Source of the DNA: Cylindrodendrum hubeiense
Lineage: Eukaryota > Ascomycota > Sordariomycetes > Hypocreales > Nectriaceae
Direction: 5' to 3'
Assembly (NCBI GenBank): GCA_014621425.1
Contig: JAANBB010000002.1
Span: 313,001-377,000, forward strand
Length of the DNA stretch: 64,000 nt
The notes below the pieces were generated by a model that was given only the letters and a program-made list of their open reading frames with translations, made no database searches and was not told the DNA's origin. The translations under genes and the position numbers were made by a program. Positions 1,046 to 50,200 of this stretch are shown piece by piece. Position 1 is the first letter of the stretch. Every line of letters begins with the position of its first letter.

Positions 1046-2533
1046 GTCTGGGCTAACTACGCTGAACCGACACTTAAGGGCCTTTTTACTATGACTTAGG
1101 ATGGTGTCAACTCAGGAATGGTCTCTCTTCGTATCAGAATTAAAGCTACTCTAGATAGCAAGATCAGCATCTGACCTCGCAATGGACGAAATACAATTGA
1201 GATCACAGTGAACCATGTCGTGAGATACAAAATATGATTTCTTTCGTATAATCGTTAATTCACATCATTTTTCTTCTTCTATTATTTTAAAGCGAATTTC
1301 GGATATCTAGACATGACGGTGGACTTGAGAATGAGTTCGAGTTTTCGAACACGTTCTCGCTAGCAATGTTCCATTTCCAAACGGGAAGACAGGAACTGCG
1401 GCCACCTTGTACTTATGCAAGGGGCTCTCGAATCGGGAAAGTACATAACAAAAATGCCGATAAGAGAGAGGGCCCCTGAGTGACTCTCGAAAACTCTTGA
1501 ATGAGACTTTTAACATCGCACTGCGTCAGCTTTGCAATCAATCACCTTAGTTTACTACTAGGGGGATGGATGTTCAGCAAGAAGACAAAAAAGAAATTGA
1601 TGCTCACGGATAAGAAGACTCGGCAATTTCTAGGAGCGCGCAAACTGCTCCAGCTGGAGCAACAAGACGGTTTCGCAGTGTTTGATTTTGGATTGGAGAT
1701 GGGTGCTGGCGGTTCCGATACACCTTTTATGAAGGTCAAGGAAGATAAGTGCGGTGAAAGCGATAAAAGACACTGCCAGGTCTACACTCAAGGAAAATGT
1801 GCTATTCCAGTGCATAGCCACCAATCAGAGTTGTGCCCCGGGCGATCTGAATGGGGGTGTGGATCCTCCGATGCACGAGTCGACGTAGACACGATGATTG
1901 AAAATATTCCAAAAAAGTACCTGAAGATCCTTAATGGCAGGGGATAAAGAGCAATGAAACGGCGAGATTGGGATCCCTGACTGTTTTTCCATCGATCTAG
2001 GCTGATACCAGTGACTCTCGTTCCTTTGAACTATTGAAGTATACCTTAAACCTCAATTACGGACGCTTGTTTTCTTTTCGCATAAATGTAGTAAAATATT
2101 ACAATGCCAGTTTCTGGATCAGTTTGGAAACTACGCAGGTAACACAATACTGTAAGTTAATAAATCGTCTACAATATCCCTATATTTCTTATATCACACA
2201 CCTCCCTAGTCAAGTTGTTTGAAATTTCAGCTTTACTTGTGTTGATCTTAGCGTTGTGATACATAGGTGTCAACCACAAATATCAACAGCTAGTATTGGC
2301 TGTCAGCCAAAATGAAGTGATATATTGTGTTTGCTTTTTCCAGCACCTAGCTCATCACTATGACATCAATAGTTGTAATCGATTGCTTTCTTGTAAGTCG
2401 ACATGGCGATCAGGAATCGAGCCCAAGCACTTCCACAGCTGCTAAAAAAGTTACCGAGCTCAATCGATGATACCGGAGCAATCGGCATCCTGCTCTTCAA
2501 TCATATCTGCCACCTTTTTCACTAGTATGCGCC
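1046..2533. other. Intergenic, no convincing gene
   Basis: An open frame of 148 codons (1501-1947, plus) shows no recognisable family or introns, and its codon use does not look selected. The rest is AT-rich spacer. The last 500 bases are the presumed promoter of the phosphoesterase-ATPase gene; I see no clear TATA box. Confidence 0.5.
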
Positions 2534-5500
2534 ATGCTAAGACCTTCGGCCGGCACAGTGCGATGGCTGCTCCTCAGCGATATCCACTTCAAGCACCGTG
2601 ATTTGAACCGGGTGCGGCAGACAGCGGAGTGGATCGTCTCGCAGGCGAGCCAACACCGGGTCCAACGGGTCGTAGTGTGTGGTGACCTGTTAACGAGCCG
2701 GACGATGCAGCCAACGGACGTCCTATCTGCATGCTACCGCTTCGTCGGCCATCTCATCGATGCCGTGCCACGCGTCAACATCTTGCTTGGTAACCATGAT
2801 CTCGCCTATCGTCGAGACTACCAAATTACCGCTCTTGAGGCCCTCAACATCAACCGCCTATCCCCATATGTGTCACTACACAGCGGCATTGGCCATCACG
2901 AGTGGGACGGCCGGCGCGTCTTGCTGCTGCCGTTTCGCGAGGAGCAGGACGAGCTAGTCAACACCATAGCCGCTATAAGTCCCGATGAGGCCAGCAAGAC
3001 GGTTGCTTTTGCACATCTCGCAATTAACAAAGCCATAACCCAGCGATATGTGGCTGGCAGACCCCTTACGGCAAATCCTATAACCTACTCTGGCTTGACG
3101 GGTCCCGATCGCTTTGCCTCGCTGGCACGAACGTTCACGGGACACTTTCACAGTCACCAAATCATCACCCAGAAGCGATCCGGAGACCTGCAGGGCAGCG
3201 TCACGTACCTGGGCTCTCCCTTGCAACTGACCTGGGCTGACCTGTACGACGAGCAGCGGGGCGTCGTCTTGTTCGATCCGGAAACGCTCGAGCACGAAAT
3301 GCTGGTCAACCCGTATGGTGTCGGCTACGTGACGGCTGACCTACAACAAGTTCTTAACGACCAGGTGGACGAGGGTGCTGTGAATGACAAGCATGTCATG
3401 CTCCTCGGCGAACTAAGCCATCTCAAATACATCACGGCTCGCGACAAACTTCTCTCGCTCGGTGTACGAAGCGTGAGAGGCGTGCGAGAATGGAACCCCA
3501 CGGGCCCTGCCTTGAACGCTGACAACCAGTCATTTGGCGGCCTCGGTGTATCGGTGCCGGCGAGTGATGCTGCCGTTCAGCCTTTGGAGCCCATCAATGA
3601 AACAGGTTCAGACACAACGAGTGACGGTATTTCGGGTTCTGACCCTGTAACTGAGACTCGGGTTCGAATACTCGATCTGGCCACCGAAGGCCGCGAGTAT
3701 GTCGAGTCGCTGGAGTTGGAAGAGCCTCTTCTCTCGCGACGAGACGAGTTGGTGCGAGTTGGACAGCGAATAATCCAATTCTCCCGCGAGATGGCAGACC
3801 GAACTCAATTGCCCGACATCAACTACCAAGAGTTTCTCGACAGGCCACATCAAGCTGTCGGTGCAAGTACTGCCATCGAGCTGCCAGCACCCTCGAGCGA
3901 CGTGTTCGTCGCCGAGCCGCGCAAACTCACAATCACCAACTTCCTCGGCGTGCAGGGTACCCTTGCGATCGATTTCCGTCAGGACATCCCGCGCGGATTG
4001 ACCTTCTTGGTCGGCGACAATGGCTCCGGTAAGAGCACGCTCGTCGAAGCCATGGTTTGGTGCCAGTTTGGGCAGTGCATACGAAGCGGGTTAGCGGTCA
4101 AAGACGTCGTCAATGACAATGTGGGGATGAACTGCTCAGTCGTGCTGGAGTTCACCAATGGTTACACCATCGCGCGGTACCGCAAGCATAGAAACTACAG
4201 GAACCGCGTTGTCGTTTTTTTACACGGCGAGCCACAGCTGCAGCTTGAGCACCCGGACGCGCGGGCGACGCAGGCTGCCATCGACGAGCTACTGGGCATC
4301 TCCTACGAGTCGTATGTCAGGACTGTCGTGCTGGACCACGAGGGTGCGTCAAGCTTCCTCAACTCGAAACCAGCAGAGCGGCGCGACCTTATCGAGACAT
4401 CGCTCGGGCTGTCGGTGCTAGATCAGTGCGGGCAGGTGTCGAAGCAGCTGCTCAAGAATCTCGATGAGGACGTAGGTGATCTCGAAAGCAGGCTAGAATT
4501 CTTACATCGGGGCATGGAGGAAATCCAGCGACGGCTACAAGATCTGAACCGGAAACAAAACCGAGTCGAAGCGGAGGCGAAGGAGGCCGTCGCATCTTTG
4601 GAGGCGGCTATTCAAGAGAACACGATTACTGCACAACAAATCGATGGGCAAGGACCTTCTAACGAAGGCTACTCACAGTTTGAGCACAAGCATGCCGAGT
4701 TGGGAATAGATACCGCAAATCTTGAGGGTGAAATATTGACTGCAAGGAAAAGAGTTCAGGCCTTACTGAGACGAGATGAGTCCGCTGAGATTAGCAAGGT
4801 CTTCCACATTAAAATTTCAACGTTACAGAATCACATCAACCTCAAGCAGGGGGATTTGCAACGACTGGAAAGCTCATATGCTCTCATGCAGGAACAGAGG
4901 CAAGCTGAGTCAACGTCGTGGCTTGACCAGTTACAACAGCAACTGAACCAAAAGCTCGAGTGTATGCCTGTGGCTCACCTGATAGGCCTGCGCAAGTTCT
5001 TACATGCTGTCGAGACCTACCTCCTCCGCTTCCGGCTGAAGGCCATCAGGGGCCTCTCGTACATATTTTGGAGACTGGGAAACGGCCTTCCGAGAACCAG
5101 CACTCAAGACCACGACCACGAGGCATGCATCAACAATATCCGTGCAGACATCAAGAGCAGCGTCTCACGGCTTCAAAGCCTGAAGCACGAGGCAGACAAA
5201 ACCGGTTTCGCAAAAAGGCTCACCACCGACGATGCTGGCAGGATAAAGGAGCAGCTCGCGCAAGCTATCCAGGCTCAGGACGCCCTGCAGGATGAGCGCA
5301 ATCGGCAGCGCGAACGACAGCGCGAGAAATCTCGGGTGTTGGAGGCATTTCAGCAAGATTCCACACTCAAGCAACACGAAGCAGCCACGTACAGATGCCT
5401 AATAGAACCGGAGGAGAAGTCTCTACACTCTCAACGCTCAGAATACGACTCCCTGGCCGCCAAACATGAGATGCTTGTCGCCGATCGCGAGCTCTTCGTC

Positions 5501-6145
5501 TTTTGGTCCTCCACCCTGACGAAGCGCCCCCGTGTCGCCTCTTCATCTTCCTCAACAATGTCCTCAGAGGCAGCGAAGCTCACCTTTCGCGGACATGTTC
5601 TTAAGCAGTCGCTCCCTAAGCTCAACGCGCTCCTCGCACAGGCATTGACGGCGCTGTACGATGACACGCGTCACGCACGCGCCATGACAACGGGGATGCT
5701 GCGTTCGTTGTTTGACTCTGATGAGTTCATTACGAATGAATCCCTGTCCTCGGGATCAGTCCTCGAGCCCAGCCTTGCCATCAACTCCTCGCTCGCGTAC
5801 GGCAAACGCTCGGGTGGCGAGCGCAAGCGTCTCAACCTAGCGCTGTACTTTGCGTTACTGCAGCTGTGGCAGGCTGGAAGTGCACACCGCGCGCACTACG
5901 TGCTTGTCGATGAGGTGTTTGACAGCCTGGACGAGGCGGGGCAGGCGGCTGTAGTTAGGTGGTGTGGGCTCATGGCACAGAGGGTGGCCGGCTGGATCGT
6001 CGTCATCACGCACAGCCGATTCTTGATCGAGCGAGATCCGGAGGAAAATATAGATAAGTTCTTAGTTGTAAAGGCAAGTATGGGACCGAGAGGGACGGAA
6101 CTGGTTGTTGATGGACAGAGGATTGGGATTCAAGATGGGGCTTGA
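2534..6145 (+). CDS. Fused Mre11/SbcD-type phosphoesterase and Rad50/SbcC-type ATPase
   Basis: One uninterrupted 1203-codon frame encodes both halves of an SbcCD-like nuclease complex. Residues 10-270 are a calcineurin-like phosphoesterase with all five metal motifs: SDIHF (D16, H18), CGDLL (D51), GNHD (86-89), AHL (H161) and GHFHSH (203-208). A linker (about 320-460) leads to an SMC-type ATPase: Walker A GDNGSGKST (494-502), coiled coil about 640-800 and 865-985, signature SGGE (1093-1096), Walker B VLVDEVFD (D1126, E1127), D-loop SLDE and H-loop His1160. The arms are short and no CxxC zinc hook is present; the apex holds a hydrophobic stretch (about 818-850). The frame is open upstream to 2471 but has no earlier ATG. 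Expected activity is ATP-gated DNA end or hairpin processing. Canonical fungal MRE11 and RAD50 are separate genes, so this would be an additional protein. No mitochondrial presequence is evident. Confidence 0.9.
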   Translation: MLRPSAGTVRWLLLSDIHFKHRDLNRVRQTAEWIVSQASQHRVQRVVVCGDLLTSRTMQPTDVLSACYRFVGHLIDAVPRVNILLGNHDLAYRRDYQITALEALNINRLSPYVSLHSGIGHHEWDGRRVLLLPFREEQDELVNTIAAISPDEASKTVAFAHLAINKAITQRYVAGRPLTANPITYSGLTGPDRFASLARTFTGHFHSHQIITQKRSGDLQGSVTYLGSPLQLTWADLYDEQRGVVLFDPETLEHEMLVNPYGVGYVTADLQQVLNDQVDEGAVNDKHVMLLGELSHLKYITARDKLLSLGVRSVRGVREWNPTGPALNADNQSFGGLGVSVPASDAAVQPLEPINETGSDTTSDGISGSDPVTETRVRILDLATEGREYVESLELEEPLLSRRDELVRVGQRIIQFSREMADRTQLPDINYQEFLDRPHQAVGASTAIELPAPSSDVFVAEPRKLTITNFLGVQGTLAIDFRQDIPRGLTFLVGDNGSGKSTLVEAMVWCQFGQCIRSGLAVKDVVNDNVGMNCSVVLEFTNGYTIARYRKHRNYRNRVVVFLHGEPQLQLEHPDARATQAAIDELLGISYESYVRTVVLDHEGASSFLNSKPAERRDLIETSLGLSVLDQCGQVSKQLLKNLDEDVGDLESRLEFLHRGMEEIQRRLQDLNRKQNRVEAEAKEAVASLEAAIQENTITAQQIDGQGPSNEGYSQFEHKHAELGIDTANLEGEILTARKRVQALLRRDESAEISKVFHIKISTLQNHINLKQGDLQRLESSYALMQEQRQAESTSWLDQLQQQLNQKLECMPVAHLIGLRKFLHAVETYLLRFRLKAIRGLSYIFWRLGNGLPRTSTQDHDHEACINNIRADIKSSVSRLQSLKHEADKTGFAKRLTTDDAGRIKEQLAQAIQAQDALQDERNRQRERQREKSRVLEAFQQDSTLKQHEAATYRCLIEPEEKSLHSQRSEYDSLAAKHEMLVADRELFVFWSSTLTKRPRVASSSSSTMSSEAAKLTFRGHVLKQSLPKLNALLAQALTALYDDTRHARAMTTGMLRSLFDSDEFITNESLSSGSVLEPSLAINSSLAYGKRSGGERKRLNLALYFALLQLWQAGSAHRAHYVLVDEVFDSLDEAGQAAVVRWCGLMAQRVAGWIVVITHSRFLIERDPEENIDKFLVVKASMGPRGTELVVDGQRIGIQDGA

Positions 6146-34692: not shown

Positions 34693-37600
34693 TTACCAGT
34701 TGCTGTCCCACACTGGTCCATTCACGTTGTCCATTTCAGGAAACAGTGACTGCCAATTTCCGCTCCACTCCTCTGCGTCGTCCCCATCTGGCCCAACGAC
34801 ATCCGCCACTTCCTCAATCTGGGTCTCAGCAAGCAAAGGATCATCGCCTCGCACCCCACAGTTGCCTAAATTCTGTGGCTGTTGAAGTAAAATCTGGCCT
34901 AGTGACTTAGTTTCTCTCCCCTTTTCAGACGCATCGTTGTCGTCATCAAGATTAGAGTACTCATCAGACCAGCACCTTATGTTATGTGACAAATTACTTT
35001 CGAGCCATATTTTCTCGTCTTCATCTGTCCACTCCTGATGATCTCTAAGCACCGATTCGACAACCGGATTATTTCTTTCTTTCGCAAACCAGATCGACCG
35101 CACATATTGGCGTCGCCGTGTACCAGATGTCTTCAAGCCGTTACAAAGCAAGAATTGGACCATGTCGAGCCTCCCATGCTCCGCAGCACCTTCTAATGCC
35201 GTGCGGCCATTTGCGACTGCGCGTCTGGCGTTGACATCGGCGCCATGGTCAATCAAAAGATTTGCGATTCCCAGGTATCCTTGGATAGCGGCGAGCTGGA
35301 GTGAAGTTGCACCACCATCGTGGTACGGAGGCTCGTCAACCTTGGCACCGGCTTCAAGCAGCATATTGATTAGAGCTAGATTTCCCATCTGCACCGCTTG
35401 CTGGAGTGGAGTCCTACAAGGGAAATAACCTTCAGCTCGAATTCCAGCCGACAAAAGAAGTTGAACCATATCGAGGTGGGCGTTGCAAACTGCCTCAAAA
35501 AGCGGATTGTGTACCCGTCGTCCAAAGAGCGCGCCGGCAGACGGTTGGCTTTCGAGAACCCTCCGCGCTAGCGAGAGGTCGTTATTCTTGGCTGCTTCAA
35601 CCAACGTATACCAATCGAGACCGTAGCCATGGCCACATAACTTTCCAAGTGCAACTTCATCCTTGAGGCGTGCCGCAAGCGCAGGAGGTGAGCTAAAAAG
35701 ACAAGGGGGGTTTCTGAACGATTTCTCAAGATCGGCACGATACATCTCGGTAGGATACATCTCGTCAGGAAAATTCCGAATCGGCGGCTCAGGACCCTCC
35801 AGGACTACTGGAAGAAACGATAATAAAAGATCCAGGTAATTTGATCCACCTAAAACCACTGCTAAGGAGATAGCTGTTGTCTCAAGGCTAGCAGTAATCG
35901 CGCCAACGGATCGATTCCTGAGAAGCCGTTCGACCAAGGACAATGGTGCTCGAAGTGCCAATGCCGTACATAGTGATCTGGCATCGTATAAATCTGAACG
36001 ATAGGCAAATACAGTCTCGATAGCTTCTGCCTCCTGCGAACGTATCGCGGCCTCGAGAGCGGTAAAGCCGTCGCAAATAGTACCACCTAGGCTTGCGCCA
36101 TAGTTCAGAAGGAGTTTGGCTACGGCACAGTTACCGGCGTGAAGGGCCAATATAGCCTCGCTGCCCTTGAGGACTGCCCCAGCAGAAATGAGAGACTCTG
36201 TAATAGTTTCTGCCGCGACTTTGAACTTGCGAGGAAGTGAAGCTGCCCATTCCAGAGCACTGCTGCCACCATATGTTTCGTTTGGGTTGCCATCTGCGGC
36301 CAGCACGGCCGACACGACATCCACACTACCACATCTAATAGCATTTATAACAGCTCCTTTACTCAACCTCGCACCTGCCCGAACCAGACTAGCCAGGCAC
36401 CTTGACCAGCTGGAATGGGGGCTGGCAACATGAGCCCCATACTCGAAAGGGCTGGAAGGAGCCGCACCTTGAAAACTCAACTCAAACAACGCTTCCATAG
36501 GCGACATATTATGCTTCCTATGAAAATCCGTGATGTTAATTTTGACTGCAGTGTGAATATTCGGCCTCCATCCTGGTATTATGTCCAAGGGACTGGGAAA
36601 TATTCTCGCGGCATCCACGTCGGCCCCGTTGTTTATCAGCAAGTCGACAATTCTGTCTTGATTTAATATGGCAGCAAAATGAAGTGCGGAGAAGTAGGTA
36701 GATGGTGAGTTGACTGGCACTTGGTGATCGAGAAGAAACTCGCAAGTTCTGAGATCGCCCGAGAAAGCCGCGGCATGTAAAGTAGTGAAGCCGTAGGCGT
36801 TGGCAGTCGCAATGTCTGATGAGTTTTCGCAGAGAAACTGGAGAGCACAGATATTACCTGCCTCGGCAGCAGAGATGAAAACGTCAGGAGTGATAAGACT
36901 TGAGACGGATATTGACGGGTATCGAGTTTTAAGCGTGTCCAAGATGAATCGCACAAGAGTATCTTCTGGGTTTTTGACCATCCCTAATGTCCCACGCCAA
37001 CTGTGAATTTTCTTCACGGAAGCTGCCTCGCAGAGTGCTGTGGGGGTTTTTGATAACCAACTCTCTGGGAGGTCTCGCAGAAGGTTTGCCCCTTTAAGCA
37101 CCAAGGTCTTGACAAAATCAACACATCCTATGGCGATGGCGTCCCTTAGACCCGTATCAAAATGAGATCGGGGACTATATTGTATTAGAAGATCAACCAG
37201 CATTTTCTCCTCCGGTTCGGCTTCCGTTTCTTCGTACGGTTCCTCGACGCCCTCTGTGAAAATGTCATAGACCTGCAAGGCTTCTTGAAGTGGTGTGTTG
37301 GAGTGTTCGGTATGATCCATAGCACCAGCTTCTAGTAGCATTCGTGTGCAGCGCACTGACTGTATCCTTATACACAATAGAAGTGGTGTCCCTTCTGCAA
37401 ATCGAGTGTTGGGGTCAATGCCGCACATTAGAAGCCATTCGAGCACGGCAGTGACACCTTCGAGATCACAGTCAAACCATTCGTCGCAATCATTTACGTA
37501 ATCGCCCCAAAGTTGAAAGAGATTATCCATGAAGGCCATGGTTGTCCGGTTCCCGATCGAGGCGACGTCAATAGGATGACGAAGGAGCCCAGATTGGCGA

Positions 37601-38573
37601 AGAATGGCCTCCGTATTTTTCCAGTACTTGCATATCTCAGAGTGATCCCAGTTTTTGTTTGATAGACTGTAGACCATCAATGCAAAGTGTTCCTGGAAGA
37701 AGTCCAGACTCGGGCGGCTAATAAGAGCCGAGGCGCGACTCAAATGCTCTCCTATGCATGACTCGGGCATAGATTTCCCAATTTCAGAAGCTAGTTTAGA
37801 TATGCTGATCCGGTCATCATTGGTATTCGAGCCGCAAAAGCCGGTGACTACAGGCAGGAAAAGCTGACGTGGCATTTCAGAGACCTCGTCACCTTTTTCC
37901 GCGTCCCTATATTGTTTGACATAGCCTAGGAACACTGCATCGAGAATCATTAGGCCCAGTGTACGATACAAAGCAAACACAGACTGACAGTTATAGTATT
38001 TAGACTGGAATTGAAACCAGGGTAAGGTTTCTGGCCAGACGAATTCCATCGGTAGAGCCTGAGGCGTGCAAATAGCAATCTCGGTCTCTGGGAGTGATGG
38101 AGGGCTTGGAGCTGAGTGTTCACAGAAATATCAGCCCGTAGGTCACATACTATGAACGTTCTTGGACTCACCGGGTGCGAACGGCGCAAATGGAGCCCTG
38201 TCACGATGGCGCTCTGTCTCGTTCTCAATAGTGGATAGCTTTAGACGCTTGCCATTATAGATGACTTCGCTCTCTCTAGCCTTGCGCTTCTTTAATTGAT
38301 GAGCTACATATAGCCAAGCAGATTCGTCCATATTCTTTTTAAAGTTCCATTTCTTCAATTGGTACTCAAGTTGCGCCTTCCTGTACACAATAGCTATCAG
38401 CGACAACTCATGTCCAAAAGGGCTAGAAAAGCTGACGTAACGGTCAGACCAAGCTCACCAACCTTGGCCACAAGTTCCTTCAAAGTAACGTTGCGAACAA
38501 GGTAGTCCCGTCGGATGTCAGCCTTGCAGCGTAACCACTCGTCCTCGGTTGGCTTTGGTCGGGATCGGGGCAT
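34693..38573 (-). CDS. Clr5-domain ankyrin-repeat protein
   Basis: Three exons (38573-38459, 38393-38172, 38111-34693; introns 65 and 60 bases) encode about 1251 residues. The first 60 residues form a Clr5 domain: EDEWLRCKADIRRDYLV, TLKELVAKV and QLEYQLKKWNFKKN. A basic linker follows. From about residue 330 there are many ankyrin repeats, with clear examples FTTLHAAAFSGDLRTCEFLL, SALHFAAILNQDRIVDLLI, TPLQQAVQMGNLALINMLL, SLQLAAIQGYLGIANLLI and TALEGAAEHGRLDMVQFLL. The C-terminus is acidic and Trp-rich. Clr5-ankyrin proteins are abundant in Pezizomycotina and vary between strains; function is mostly unknown (heterochromatin or recognition roles are suggested by the domain name only). The splice acceptor GATAG of intron 1 was chosen over the downstream TACAG because only it keeps the frame. 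Confidence 0.85.
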
Positions 38574-46271: not shown

Positions 46272-48471
46272 TGTGAAGAGGAACACAGCTCGAGGGGGAA
46301 ATGCTGGTGTCGGTGGAAGCAAATGGCTCAAGGGCGTGCCGATTCGACTTGAGAATGCATTCAGGAGTTTGAAGGATGTGGAAAACAGGTCCAAGGCTGG
46401 TTTGGAGGCATTTGCGTAGAGGTAATGTACTGCTGCAACGAGGCTGAGCAAACGCTACACAGATACAGGTGGAGCAGCTTGGCGGCGGTGGCACCTTTGC
46501 CAAGCAGCCAAGATCCCCCTTAGCAACACGATGGGTCGCAAAGTGATGCGCGTCCCAATCATCGCCACCGAGTGACCTGTCTTCCGGAAAACAGCTCAAG
46601 CCCCCTTGCTCCGTCTCCTGCATCTCCTTCCCCATCGCTCAAAGCTTGTCAATAACCATAATTTAGTGGGGAGCAGCTAGCTCTTTACAGGCTAGTGCCC
46701 CTTGTCCGGGGCAGTGCTTAATTATTACAACATCTTCATCTCTTGTGGCCGCTCGGAGTCTGGCAATCCCGGGCGCGTCCGTAAGTGTGGATACCGTTAA
46801 ATTCGACGATTGGAGGTCACCTTCTACAATAGGCGAAGACGATGGCTCTCGAGGCTCTACCAATCCAGCTTTTGTTTTGTTCGTGATGATTCCAAGCGGC
46901 TTCTCTTCTCTTGGAAGTCGCCGACCTGGCGGGCTGTACACCTGCACACCGTCGTGTAATGTATCTGTCCTCCGTTGTAGACTAAGATTGGGCTCCATAA
47001 TGACGTCTCCACGTTCAAGTCCTTGCCACCTAAAGTGCTCAGCCCCCTTCAAACGTGCTTTGATACGTGACGTTATCCTATCGCCCCGAGATTATCCCCC
47101 TTCGAGCTAGACCAGCCCCACGAGCCTAGCTAGCAAAATTGCCCGCTCGCTCTGCCAAGCGGGAGGCAGCCCGGATCGGTGTCTTCGGATGCGGTCAACT
47201 GGCAAATACCAGCAGAAGCCGAGAGGGAATTCAAGGCAGTTCGACAATGAGGGTCAAGTTGCCAAGTTGCCAAGTCATTAAGCCCGGCTGTGCAATTGTA
47301 CTGCGTGGGTCTTTTCTGTTATTGACCAATCGGCTTGGGAGGCAAATGACATGCAAGCATCATCCGCCCGTAAAATTACGCGTCCTAAAGCGGTACGAGT
47401 CCAAAATTTTGCACAACGGCCATGTTAAATACACTTCATTTCAGCCAGCATGTCACTACCCCGCTCCGACTCCTCAGAAAAATGCATATGGATACGCGTG
47501 TAAAACCTTGCCACCTCTGTGCTGGAGTCTATGCTGGAGTCTAGTGCCGGCTGTGTTCTGCTGGGTTGAGCAGACAGCTCCACCATGTTATACTTCGTAG
47601 TTCTACGTACAAGCAGACTCCGAATGAGCCGGCGCCGCTAACAAGTCTTTCGGAAACAAGATAATCGCGGGATGAAACTCGAGCTGACGTTTGAACAGGA
47701 TGCGATGACATTCATTACCTCATTACTCATCTTGGCAATGCTGGGGTTGCCGCCGTCCCCACAATGCTGTGAGGCTGTGCAAGCAAATCTAGCCTATCGG
47801 ACAAGAACCCTGATCAGTCTTTATGTTTGATTGCCCTGTGAGCGGAAATATGAACCCGCTCTTTGTCATATCAGCAATCCTACAGTTGTATCCTGGAGGT
47901 ATGTCTAAGAGCGACTAGAGCAGCGATTGCGGTGGAAAATTACCATGTCTGGATAGAGATGCTGGGCAATAGACTTCATTTACCTCCACGGCATCCCCTA
48001 TTGCGTGACCTGGCAGGTGGTCACTTGGCATTGCTGTTCAGAGATTACCCGAGGCACATTCAATCTCTCCGCATGACCTTGGCTGTTGCGTATGAGCCAG
48101 CTTTGTCGTACGTCATCCGCTGCGGCAGTGAAAGCTCAGCCCATAGTCTATATGATTGGAGAGGGAGCAATCACGAGCGTTCTTCTCAGAGCTCTCATGA
48201 GTTGCATGGCTTCTCATGTTGCTAGCACTTCTTGAAGACCAACAATCCCAATCTAGGTCAAGGTAGCCCATTCAAGAGGTTATGACGAGTATATATCAGC
48301 TGCTTTGATGGGGTGCAATGAAAGAAAAAGAAATCCCGATCGGGATACACGATTTACATTTCCGTTTCTGAGTAGGAGGAAACATTGTATTTAACTAGGC
48401 CCAATAAAGCCTTAAAAGAGTAGACCACAACCACTGCGAATCAGATCCACGCGATAACATTTGGGACATTG
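46272..48471. other. Long upstream region of the calcium pump
   Basis: No gene supported. Several open frames of 100-150 codons (46745-47110, 47139-47600 and 47863-48225, plus) lack family resemblance. A gttgccaa doublet lies near 47260. The sequence runs up to the transposon's left end. Confidence 0.45.
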
Positions 48472-48517
48472 TAAGGTGGGGACCCACCTTACCGCGCACC
48501 CCCCCTTTCCGCGCACT
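48472..48517 (+). repeat. Left terminal inverted repeat, 46 bases
   Basis: Identical over 46/46 positions to the reverse complement of 50285-50330. The outer 20 bases (taaggtgggg/acccacctta) are themselves an almost perfect palindrome, followed by a GC-rich block with a run of seven C. Confidence 0.95.
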
Positions 48518-48603
48518 GATAGCCTACGCGATCACATAACGCGCTGAATATAACTCCTCTATAACATTATCAATTCTAGACCAATTCCACCTAAACTTTT
48601 ATC

Positions 48604-50200
48604 ATGAGTACTTAGAAACTTGACCGTGAGATCCTGCTAACCGAAATTCTTGAGAAGGTCTTGGAAGGTGGTGTAATTTGCACTCTCATAAAGTAATATA
48701 ATATCCCTGAGTCTACAATTCGAGGATGAAGAGATGGCGCGAAAAATATATATTCCGGGCAAGAGAAAGCACAGAGATTATTATTAATTCAAGAGTAGCT
48801 ATTAGTCTGTTATATACTCTAAGAAGAAGTTACTAGAAGGGTGTTATTATAGTATAATATATGTGATATGGTGTATAAAATTATTAACCTAGAGAATGAA
48901 GATAATTCTATTGGTAAATATTAGGTCAAGTACTTCCTTAAGTATAACCCTGAGATTAAAATAAAGGGATCTATATCTGTTAAAGCTATCTGATTAAATA
49001 ATATTATTCTTAAAATAATCTGACTATTCTATAAGATATTAGAGTAAGAAGTTATTAATAAAGATATTCTATTATCCTGGATATTTAATATAGATAAATA
49101 TGATATTACTGAGGGCTCTATTAAGGTAGATAAAGTGGTTAGAAGTTCCCTCACTTATTAGGTGATTATTATGGAGAGTGATTACCGTAAATAGGTCTCT
49201 ATTATAGAGGTAGTTAATATTATAGGGAAATATATCAAGCCCTATATTATTTTTACTAGAAATAATATATAAGGATAGTGGTTTTTTAAGGCTTTTCCTG
49301 ACTAAACTTATAACTACTTGCTAATAGACTAGTCTAATACCCAGATCTATAAGAAATAGCTTAAGGATATATTTTTACTAGCTATAAGACTAAATGATCT
49401 TACTCTTTAGAGGATTCTGGTCCTTAATAATTTCTCTCCTTATATCTCACCCCGATTTCACTTCCAAGTATTATTTTATTATATTTAGTTACTTTATTTA
49501 TCCCCCTATTTATTATATATTATATAATTACTTAATATTAGTATATTTAGCTTATTAAAATTAGCTTTTTAGTAATATATAAGATAATATATATTATTCT
49601 TAACTACTATCCCAATTTAAAAATAGCACTTCCTATAAATATATAAAGAGATATTTAAGGAAGTCCTAAGTCAGAGAAATATCCAAGGTGGTTTTTCAAG
49701 TATAGGAATCTAGTCTATTAATATAGAAAAGCTATTAGTATATATTATTATTACTAACTAACTCTCTACTACTAGAACACTATTATAGATATTAAAACAT
49801 TATAAGGTTCTAAAGTTTTCTAAGGATTATATTCTATATATACCTAAGAATAGGGTTGAGCTTAAAACCTAGCTAAATTAGATATAGGAGGGCATTAATA
49901 ATATTAGCTAGCTAGTTTATAATATTAGAAATTATACTAGAAATAATATTAAGTAGCTCCACACCGATAACACTACTTTAAAGAGGAAATATATATATCT
50001 AAAAGACTATCTAGAATTATAGAAGGCTATAGACTATAAGATAATCACTTATAATATTAAGGTTTTATTTCCTATAGCTAAAGAGATTGCCAAAGCCCAT
50101 CTAATACCCAAGATCAATTTAATATCGAAAATCCCACACAAATAGCACAAGATTGAGCCCGCGCAAAAAAGACCTAGTTATTTAATAATAGATAGCATAA
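48604..50200 (+). pseudogene. Pogo/Fot1 transposase relic destroyed by RIP-like mutation
   Basis: The plus-strand frame can still be followed through many stops. It shows an N-terminal helix-turn-helix trace (IPESTIRG), a CENP-B-like second segment (GKY-stop-VKYFLKYNPEIK), the DDE domain trace (WIFNIDKYDI where relatives have WNMDE) and RK-stop-VSIIEVVNIIGK before IFTRNNI. A later block (EVLSQRNIQGGFSSIGI) matches the family's ending. Stops often stand where the family has Trp (TGG to TAG, which is C-to-T in a CpA context on the other strand), the hallmark of RIP. No functional protein remains. Confidence 0.8.

Follow-up and report, generated by a model that had tools for sequence, protein, structure and literature searches.

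A single-chain SbcD-SbcC-type fusion gene in the ascomycete Cylindrodendrum hubeiense and its hookless fungal family

The DNA analysed here, referred to as the window, is a stretch of 64,000 nucleotides from Cylindrodendrum hubeiense, corresponding to bases 313001–377000 of contig C112 in a genome of 47.5 Mb and 798 contigs. On its forward strand lies a single frame of 1203 codons, starting with the ATG at 2534, ending in a TGA at 6145 and free of internal stops. The open stretch around it measures 1224 codons, a length with a chance of about 3e-26 by arithmetic that assumes equal codon use. The gene codes for an SbcD/Mre11-type phosphoesterase followed by a complete SbcC/Rad50-type ATP-binding cassette (ABC) ATPase with a coiled coil. 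An earlier note, made from the letters alone, had claimed the motifs of both enzymes in one frame, and both residue sets are indeed present (Table 1).

The phosphoesterase residues of the window protein are D16/H18, D51, N87/H88, H161 and H204/H206 (motifs DxH, GD, GNHD, H and HxH). Those of the ATPase are the Walker A motif GDNGSGKS at residues 494–501, the signature SGGE at 1093–1096, a Walker B motif LVDE ending in D1126-E1127, D1133 of the D-loop and H1160 of the H-loop. Pfam called the ATPase (AAA_23, 7e-16), and neither PF00149 nor PF04152 (Mre11_DNA_bind) was called on the window protein. The N-terminal half matched the NCBIfam SbcD profile at 4.5e-6 (26 bits, far under its cut-off of 450) and the SbcD-like PHROG_100 at 4e-26. 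The best family profile matches are PHROG_77 and PHROG_100, i.e. the profiles of phage gp46 and gp47. In the predicted structure a region of the size of a cap or helix-loop-helix is followed by a linker that is long enough, counted in residues, to reach the ATPase; the helix-loop-helix at the C terminus of Mre11 binds the root of the Rad50 coil (PMC3175470). A fold search in BFVD returned long proteins from Tupanvirus, Catovirus, Pyramimonas orientalis virus, Listeria phage LMTA-57 and others, aligned over about 1250–1550 columns with TM-scores of 0.2–0.4.

Table 1. Parts of the fusion gene, in window coordinates (pLDDT, predicted local distance difference test)
Feature	Position	Strand	Basis
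SbcD-SbcC (Mre11-Rad50-type) fusion gene, 1203 aa	2534–6145	+	frame; homologues cover 95–100% of query
Calcineurin-like phosphoesterase and capping region, residues 8–320	2555–3493	+	
Disordered linker, residues 316–377	3479–3664	+	pLDDT < 50
Helices 382–420, placed like the Mre11 C-terminal helix-loop-helix (putative placement)	3677–3793	+	predicted structure
Linker between the halves, residues 421–457	3794–3904	+	438–455 pLDDT < 50
ABC ATPase N-lobe, residues 458–625; Walker A at 4013–4036	3905–4408	+	
Outgoing coiled coil, residues 628–703	4415–4642	+	predicted structure
Coil apex, residues 704–857, without CxxC zinc hook; hydrophobic-to-amphipathic helix 819–848 (4988–5077)	4643–5104	+	
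Returning coiled coil, residues 858–995	5105–5518	+	predicted structure
ABC ATPase C-lobe, residues 1018–1197: signature SGGE, Walker B LVDE, D-loop, H-loop	5585–6124	+	

Relatives were sought in three protein searches, which gave 252, 277 and 229 matches at E<=0.001 from about 8000 scored candidates each; the best 120 of each were examined. The comparison with fungal proteins proposed in the earlier note thus yielded full-length ascomycete relatives, headed by copies from Ilyonectria and Neonectria with 67–70% identity to the window protein. Among the matches listed, every protein with an organism name comes from an ascomycete; lower-ranking matches may include more distant proteins. The orders represented there are Hypocreales, Sordariales, Magnaporthales, Diaporthales, Ophiostomatales, Glomerellales and Xylariales, and the member outside the Sordariomycetes is Phyllosticta (Dothideomycetes). 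Three proteins carry extra domains (P0004, a P450; P0068, a glycoside hydrolase; P0072, FAS1 and HET), which we read as gene models that run into their neighbours. Sequence divergence is fast in the coil.

Conservation was counted in 105 proteins of 1040–1350 aa within the best 120 of the 252 matches, the window protein included. All eight phosphoesterase residues are found in 91 of them, all ten ATPase residues in 99 and both sets in 87; the 14 phosphoesterase misses comprise eight alignment gaps and six substitutions. The idea that the whole fungal family is nuclease-dead was rejected on this count. Since 87 of 105 proteins retain the active sites at an identity to the window protein of roughly 42–70%, purifying selection is indicated. 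The natural reading of the conserved sites is that the proteins most likely act as ATP-controlled nucleases on DNA ends or hairpins. A basic cluster was picked up by a nuclear signal scan in 60 of the 105. Action in an organelle, which the earlier note had also considered, seems least likely for the window protein, since metal motif I starts at residue 16 and would leave little room for a targeting peptide.

The coil apex sets the family apart. A CxxC motif was found there in none of the 105 proteins; a CAxC occurs in four, at about window residue 967, in the part of the returning coil nearer the head (position checked in two of the four). By comparison, CxxC lies between the lobes in 31 of 33 non-fungal rows and in all 78 phage fusions described below. 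Equal stretches of 60 residues along the coil were scored by their most hydrophobic 19 residues. The median score is 1.28 at window residues 810–869, where 87 of 101 proteins reach at least 1.0, and 0.91 at 780–839, whereas the remaining nine stretches score 0.48 or lower; in 98 of the 105 the centre of the most hydrophobic stretch lies within 800–860. Across families the contrast is weaker, with a fungal median of 1.22 against 0.39 in the 33 non-fungal rows for stretches of differing length, and six of those rows, including E. coli SbcC, reach 1.0. A membrane anchor at the apex was rejected and no transmembrane helix is claimed, because only 11 of the 105 reach 1.6 on the 19-residue hydropathy scale.

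Two other coil arrangements were seen in passing. A phosphoesterase/ATPase pair of Monoglobus (L105, 2992–6231) has an ATPase coil containing a segment that is strongly hydrophobic and membrane-like (2.77), with no CxxC. An uncultured 484-kb phage (L104, 1441–5663) encodes a phosphoesterase motif and an ATPase in separate open reading frames (ORFs), with a CxxC-rich ORF of 305 aa between them.

The same genome encodes canonical MRE11 and RAD50, as the earlier note had supposed for fungi in general; it had named their absence as a point that would speak against its reading, and both genes were found. MRE11, on contig C49, has PF04152 and exons with DNHVG and GDLFHDN, while RAD50, on contig C17, has a Walker A exon and a CxxC near residue 686 of the joined protein; the frames of both are open in the parts read. 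The fusion gene is therefore additional. The folds are alike by family, but the canonical proteins come from two genes, with a CxxC in the RAD50 coil and PF04152 in MRE11, neither of which the fusion has, and they stand distant from it on the tree, on a long branch.

The premise of the earlier note that Mre11/Rad50 and SbcD/SbcC are always separate proteins is outdated. Yoshida, Claverie and Ogata described 13 fusions in 2011: Mimivirus R555, an Mre11-Rad50 fusion with the same domain order, and 12 further cases from two slime moulds, a moss, a diatom, two prasinophytes, five bacterial strains and a Bacillus phage (PMC3175470). The two C. kluyveri copies and the Deferribacter copy sit on plasmids, the fusions are not monophyletic, and canonical genes accompany the fusion in all cellular hosts except one. 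The authors proposed repeated fusion in the viral gene pool, followed by lateral spread. The fungal family resembles this type in having one chain with the phosphoesterase before the ATPase and coil, in the separate canonical genes of the same cell and in falling likewise outside the canonical rows. It differs in that no fungus appears among the 13; the lack of the zinc hook was seen here in the fungal proteins.

Single-ORF fusions are also found in phages, where SbcC and SbcD are described as practically universal in jumbo phages in a review (PMC7824862). Frames were read in 37 of 79 viral-contig loci and five are single-ORF fusions (L062, L067, L083, L086 and L095); one and the same 1051-aa frame, containing both motifs, is present in L062, L067 and L086, and L083 reaches 1146 aa. 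A scan aimed at phage fusions gave at least 78 among 80 loci listed, of 1015–1066 aa, and in Microcystis phage Mel-JY01 the fusion is an annotated coding sequence (WWT39521.1). These share domain order and the single ORF with the fungal family, but all 78 have CxxC, and the 12 placed in trees group together in a clade separate from that of the fungi. The earlier note knew of no described fungal system of this kind. That part stands in so far as no fungal Mre11/Rad50 fusion appeared among the titles listed by searches of an open-access library, which holds few subscription papers, whereas single-chain fusions as such were already known. The ascomycete family apparently represents a lineage not described before.

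With the window protein alone as query, four pattern matches in viral contigs included no relative. With the family alignment, genome contigs gave 73 pattern matches, and as none was confirmed, no prokaryotic chromosomal relative was obtained by this route. By tblastn, 2672 phage and 915 plasmid records matched, none with one place covering more than 80% of the query, and the rows listed (30 phage, 15 plasmid) represent for the most part two separate genes, and one of the records is unannotated. The phage fusion P0132 as query again gave no place above 80% in phage and plasmid records.

Trees were built for the ATPase lobes, for the phosphoesterase and, twice, for both joined. Twenty-two of the unfused viral loci read for frames entered the single-half trees. 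The first joined tree was made without the long rows bac_Mono, vir_L093, vir_L051 and vir_L076 and without arc_Halorh, which has no phosphoesterase half; the second omitted the same five together with three more viral and five fungal rows, and included eight phage fusions. The fungal rows form one clade on every tree. Its neighbours are unfused pairs from T4-like phages and a pair from an Acinetobacter plasmid; the phage fusions make up a separate clade, and the separate trees of the two halves, as suggested in the earlier note, each place the fungal clade beside the T4-like pairs. An archaeal plasmid row also stands beside it, on a long branch, in the ATPase-lobe tree. Approximately unbiased (AU) tests reject a grouping of the fungal with the phage fusions (p 0.0045 and 0.0196) and with E. 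coli/Ilyobacter SbcDC (p 0.0135). Because trees and AU tests separate the two, the fungal fusion looks independent of the sampled phage fusions.

The family is thus probably descended from a gp47/gp46-like pair of a T4-type phage or a plasmid, a reading limited by long branches. T4-type gp47/gp46 and similar phage or plasmid pairs have the best family profiles and are nearest to the fungal fusion on the trees, and T4 gp46 has a Walker B motif of the LDEVFD kind, as in the fungal fusion. They differ in being two genes instead of one frame and in their CxxC hook, which T4 and the 22 viral pairs all have.

A gene tree of 65 of the fungal proteins requires 12 label changes, against a minimum of seven. 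Sordariales and Colletotrichum fall among Hypocreales, and the Phyllosticta copies P0129, P0130 and P0134 nest with Discula destructiva P0139 (73% identity) inside Diaporthales; another Discula protein has 42% identity to the Phyllosticta copy. On a subset of 30 of these rows, with clades chosen after the 65-protein tree was seen, AU tests reject as clades the eight Sordariales (p 0.0001), the 11 Hypocreales (p 0.0008) and the three Diaporthales without Phyllosticta (p 0.014). Divergent copies also occur under one species name in Discula destructiva, Fusarium poae and Fusarium lateritium, where the assemblies may differ. Horizontal transfer with gain and loss among fungi would fit best, its direction being putative; ancient duplications followed by loss could also have produced the conflict.

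The window genome itself holds a broken second copy (C457:142289-142763; L004 4790-5264). The beginning of the phosphoesterase stands beside a piece of the ATPase from which much of the interior is deleted and in which the frame is broken. The longest piece of the relic, of 110 residues, is 83% identical to a Conoideocrella protein, 78% to the Ilyonectria one and 66% to the window gene. The relic is therefore nearer to copies of other species than to the window gene. A mobile element was sought and not recognised, since the flanks are single copy by DNA search and the DNA similarity of the relic runs from window position 2527 to 4443 only. An association with HET genes, suspected by eye at the relic and from Colletotrichum P0072 (Pfam HET), was dropped because Pfam gave no match for the ORF next to the relic.

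Pfam was run on 14 other frames of the window (13 of the 26 others of at least 150 codons, and one shorter). These gave a weak match to a zinc-type dehydrogenase, a 2-hydroxyacid dehydrogenase, a glycosyltransferase, an OPT transporter, a phosphomannose isomerase, a P-type ATPase, a cellulase and others, and some frames have no match. No partner gene for the fusion was seen among these 14. Elsewhere in the window, a frame of 1145 codons at 34696–38130 on the reverse strand has many ankyrin repeats, a short ORF at 187–621, for which Pfam gave no match, resembles part of a glycoside hydrolase on visual inspection, and the stretch 48001–50000 is AT-rich (GC 0.33, TA/AT 1.17), resembling the product of repeat-induced point mutation.

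Taken together, we consider it fairly likely that the window gene belongs to an ascomycete family of single-chain, SbcDC-type, ATP-controlled nucleases, which arose from a T4-type pair, was fused independently and spread beside MRE11 and RAD50. A dimer of two fused chains, held together by the phosphoesterase and ATPase heads, would probably give the same 2+2 head as in SbcCD or the Mre11-Rad50 (MR) complex. ATP would hold this head closed and inactive, and once a DNA end or hairpin is bound and ATP is hydrolysed, the phosphoesterase would be brought into position to cut; both the cutting and its substrate are predictions. The hydrophobic patch of the hookless apex may serve to attach the coil to other coils or to a surface. 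A phage or plasmid pair of the gp47/gp46 kind would have been fused independently of the sampled phage fusions, and the fused gene would then have spread and turned over among fungi.

Several points weigh against this reading. In the trees, the branches are long and composition differs in many rows; for the second joined tree the program warned of two long branches meeting, those of the plasmid row and of the fungal clade. T4 gp47 lies only in part within the stretch used, the viral rows were collected with fungal patterns and near ones were thereby favoured, and the published eukaryotic and giant-virus fusions, R555 included, stand outside the trees. The rejection of a grouping with the fungus's own MRE11/RAD50 has a weak value (p 0.032). 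In the protein, the AlphaFold2 model has a predicted TM-score (pTM) of 0.46, the window protein's own apex score is 0.98, milder than the family median of 1.28, and T54 stands where GDxx[DH] normally ends in D or H. We do not treat the last D of GDxxD as defining, because the founding member R555 also lacks it and has H there (PMC3175470). Lastly, not every copy can be an active nuclease, since six of the 105 carry substitutions at catalytic phosphoesterase residues, and in P0099 and P0105, from Fusarium poae and F. sambucinum, the losses affect phosphoesterase and ATPase alike.

The biological role, with end or hairpin cutting as the predicted activity, may be repair or defence. A back-up repair nuclease for breaks or hairpins beside the MRX complex, inherited mainly vertically with many duplications and losses, is possible, though less likely than not. 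The predicted folds and active sites are the same as in SbcCD and MR, and the published fusions likewise sit beside canonical genes in nearly all cellular hosts; the order-level conflict of the gene tree and the fast divergence of the coil speak against it. A fungal conflict gene, a horizontally exchanged nuclease acting against foreign or extrachromosomal DNA with repeated gain and loss, we think rather unlikely. The conflict between gene tree and orders with its AU rejections, the divergent copies per species name and the relic, the loss of catalytic residues in some copies and matches of the ATPase to LmuB and other defence ATPase profiles are all consistent with it. However, the defence matches span the ATPase only and resemble generic matches to structural maintenance of chromosomes (SMC)/Rad50 proteins, no defence-like neighbour was seen among the 14 frames scanned, ancient duplication and loss could also yield the tree conflict, and the tested clades were chosen once the tree was known.

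That the gene is a decaying passenger without function in this fungus is very improbable: the relic in the same genome and the degenerate copies elsewhere would suit such decay, but the window copy is complete and keeps every listed residue, and the active sites are conserved across the family as described above. Contamination or an assembly artefact is hardly credible. The top family-level profile matches are phage and bacterial, but the gene is surrounded by ordinary fungal-type genes within a contig of 550 kb, has near relatives in many named ascomycete records and is flanked by single-copy DNA.

The fungal family would extend the sporadic Mre11/Rad50 fusions to fungi, Trichoderma and Chaetomium being among the genera represented, and its one-chain form could simplify structural work on MR complexes. 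Because this family manages without a zinc hook and carries a hydrophobic patch there instead, it offers a natural test of what the hook is for. Since the gene tree crosses orders, the family is also a candidate for a DNA-processing or defence system that moves horizontally among fungi. A bolder version, decidedly doubtful at present, is that a phage-type pair fused inside ascomycetes gave a hookless nuclease with a hydrophobic apex that crosses orders and classes and defends against foreign or extrachromosomal DNA. If true, it would be a eukaryotic counterpart of the bacterial SMC/Rad50-type defence systems.

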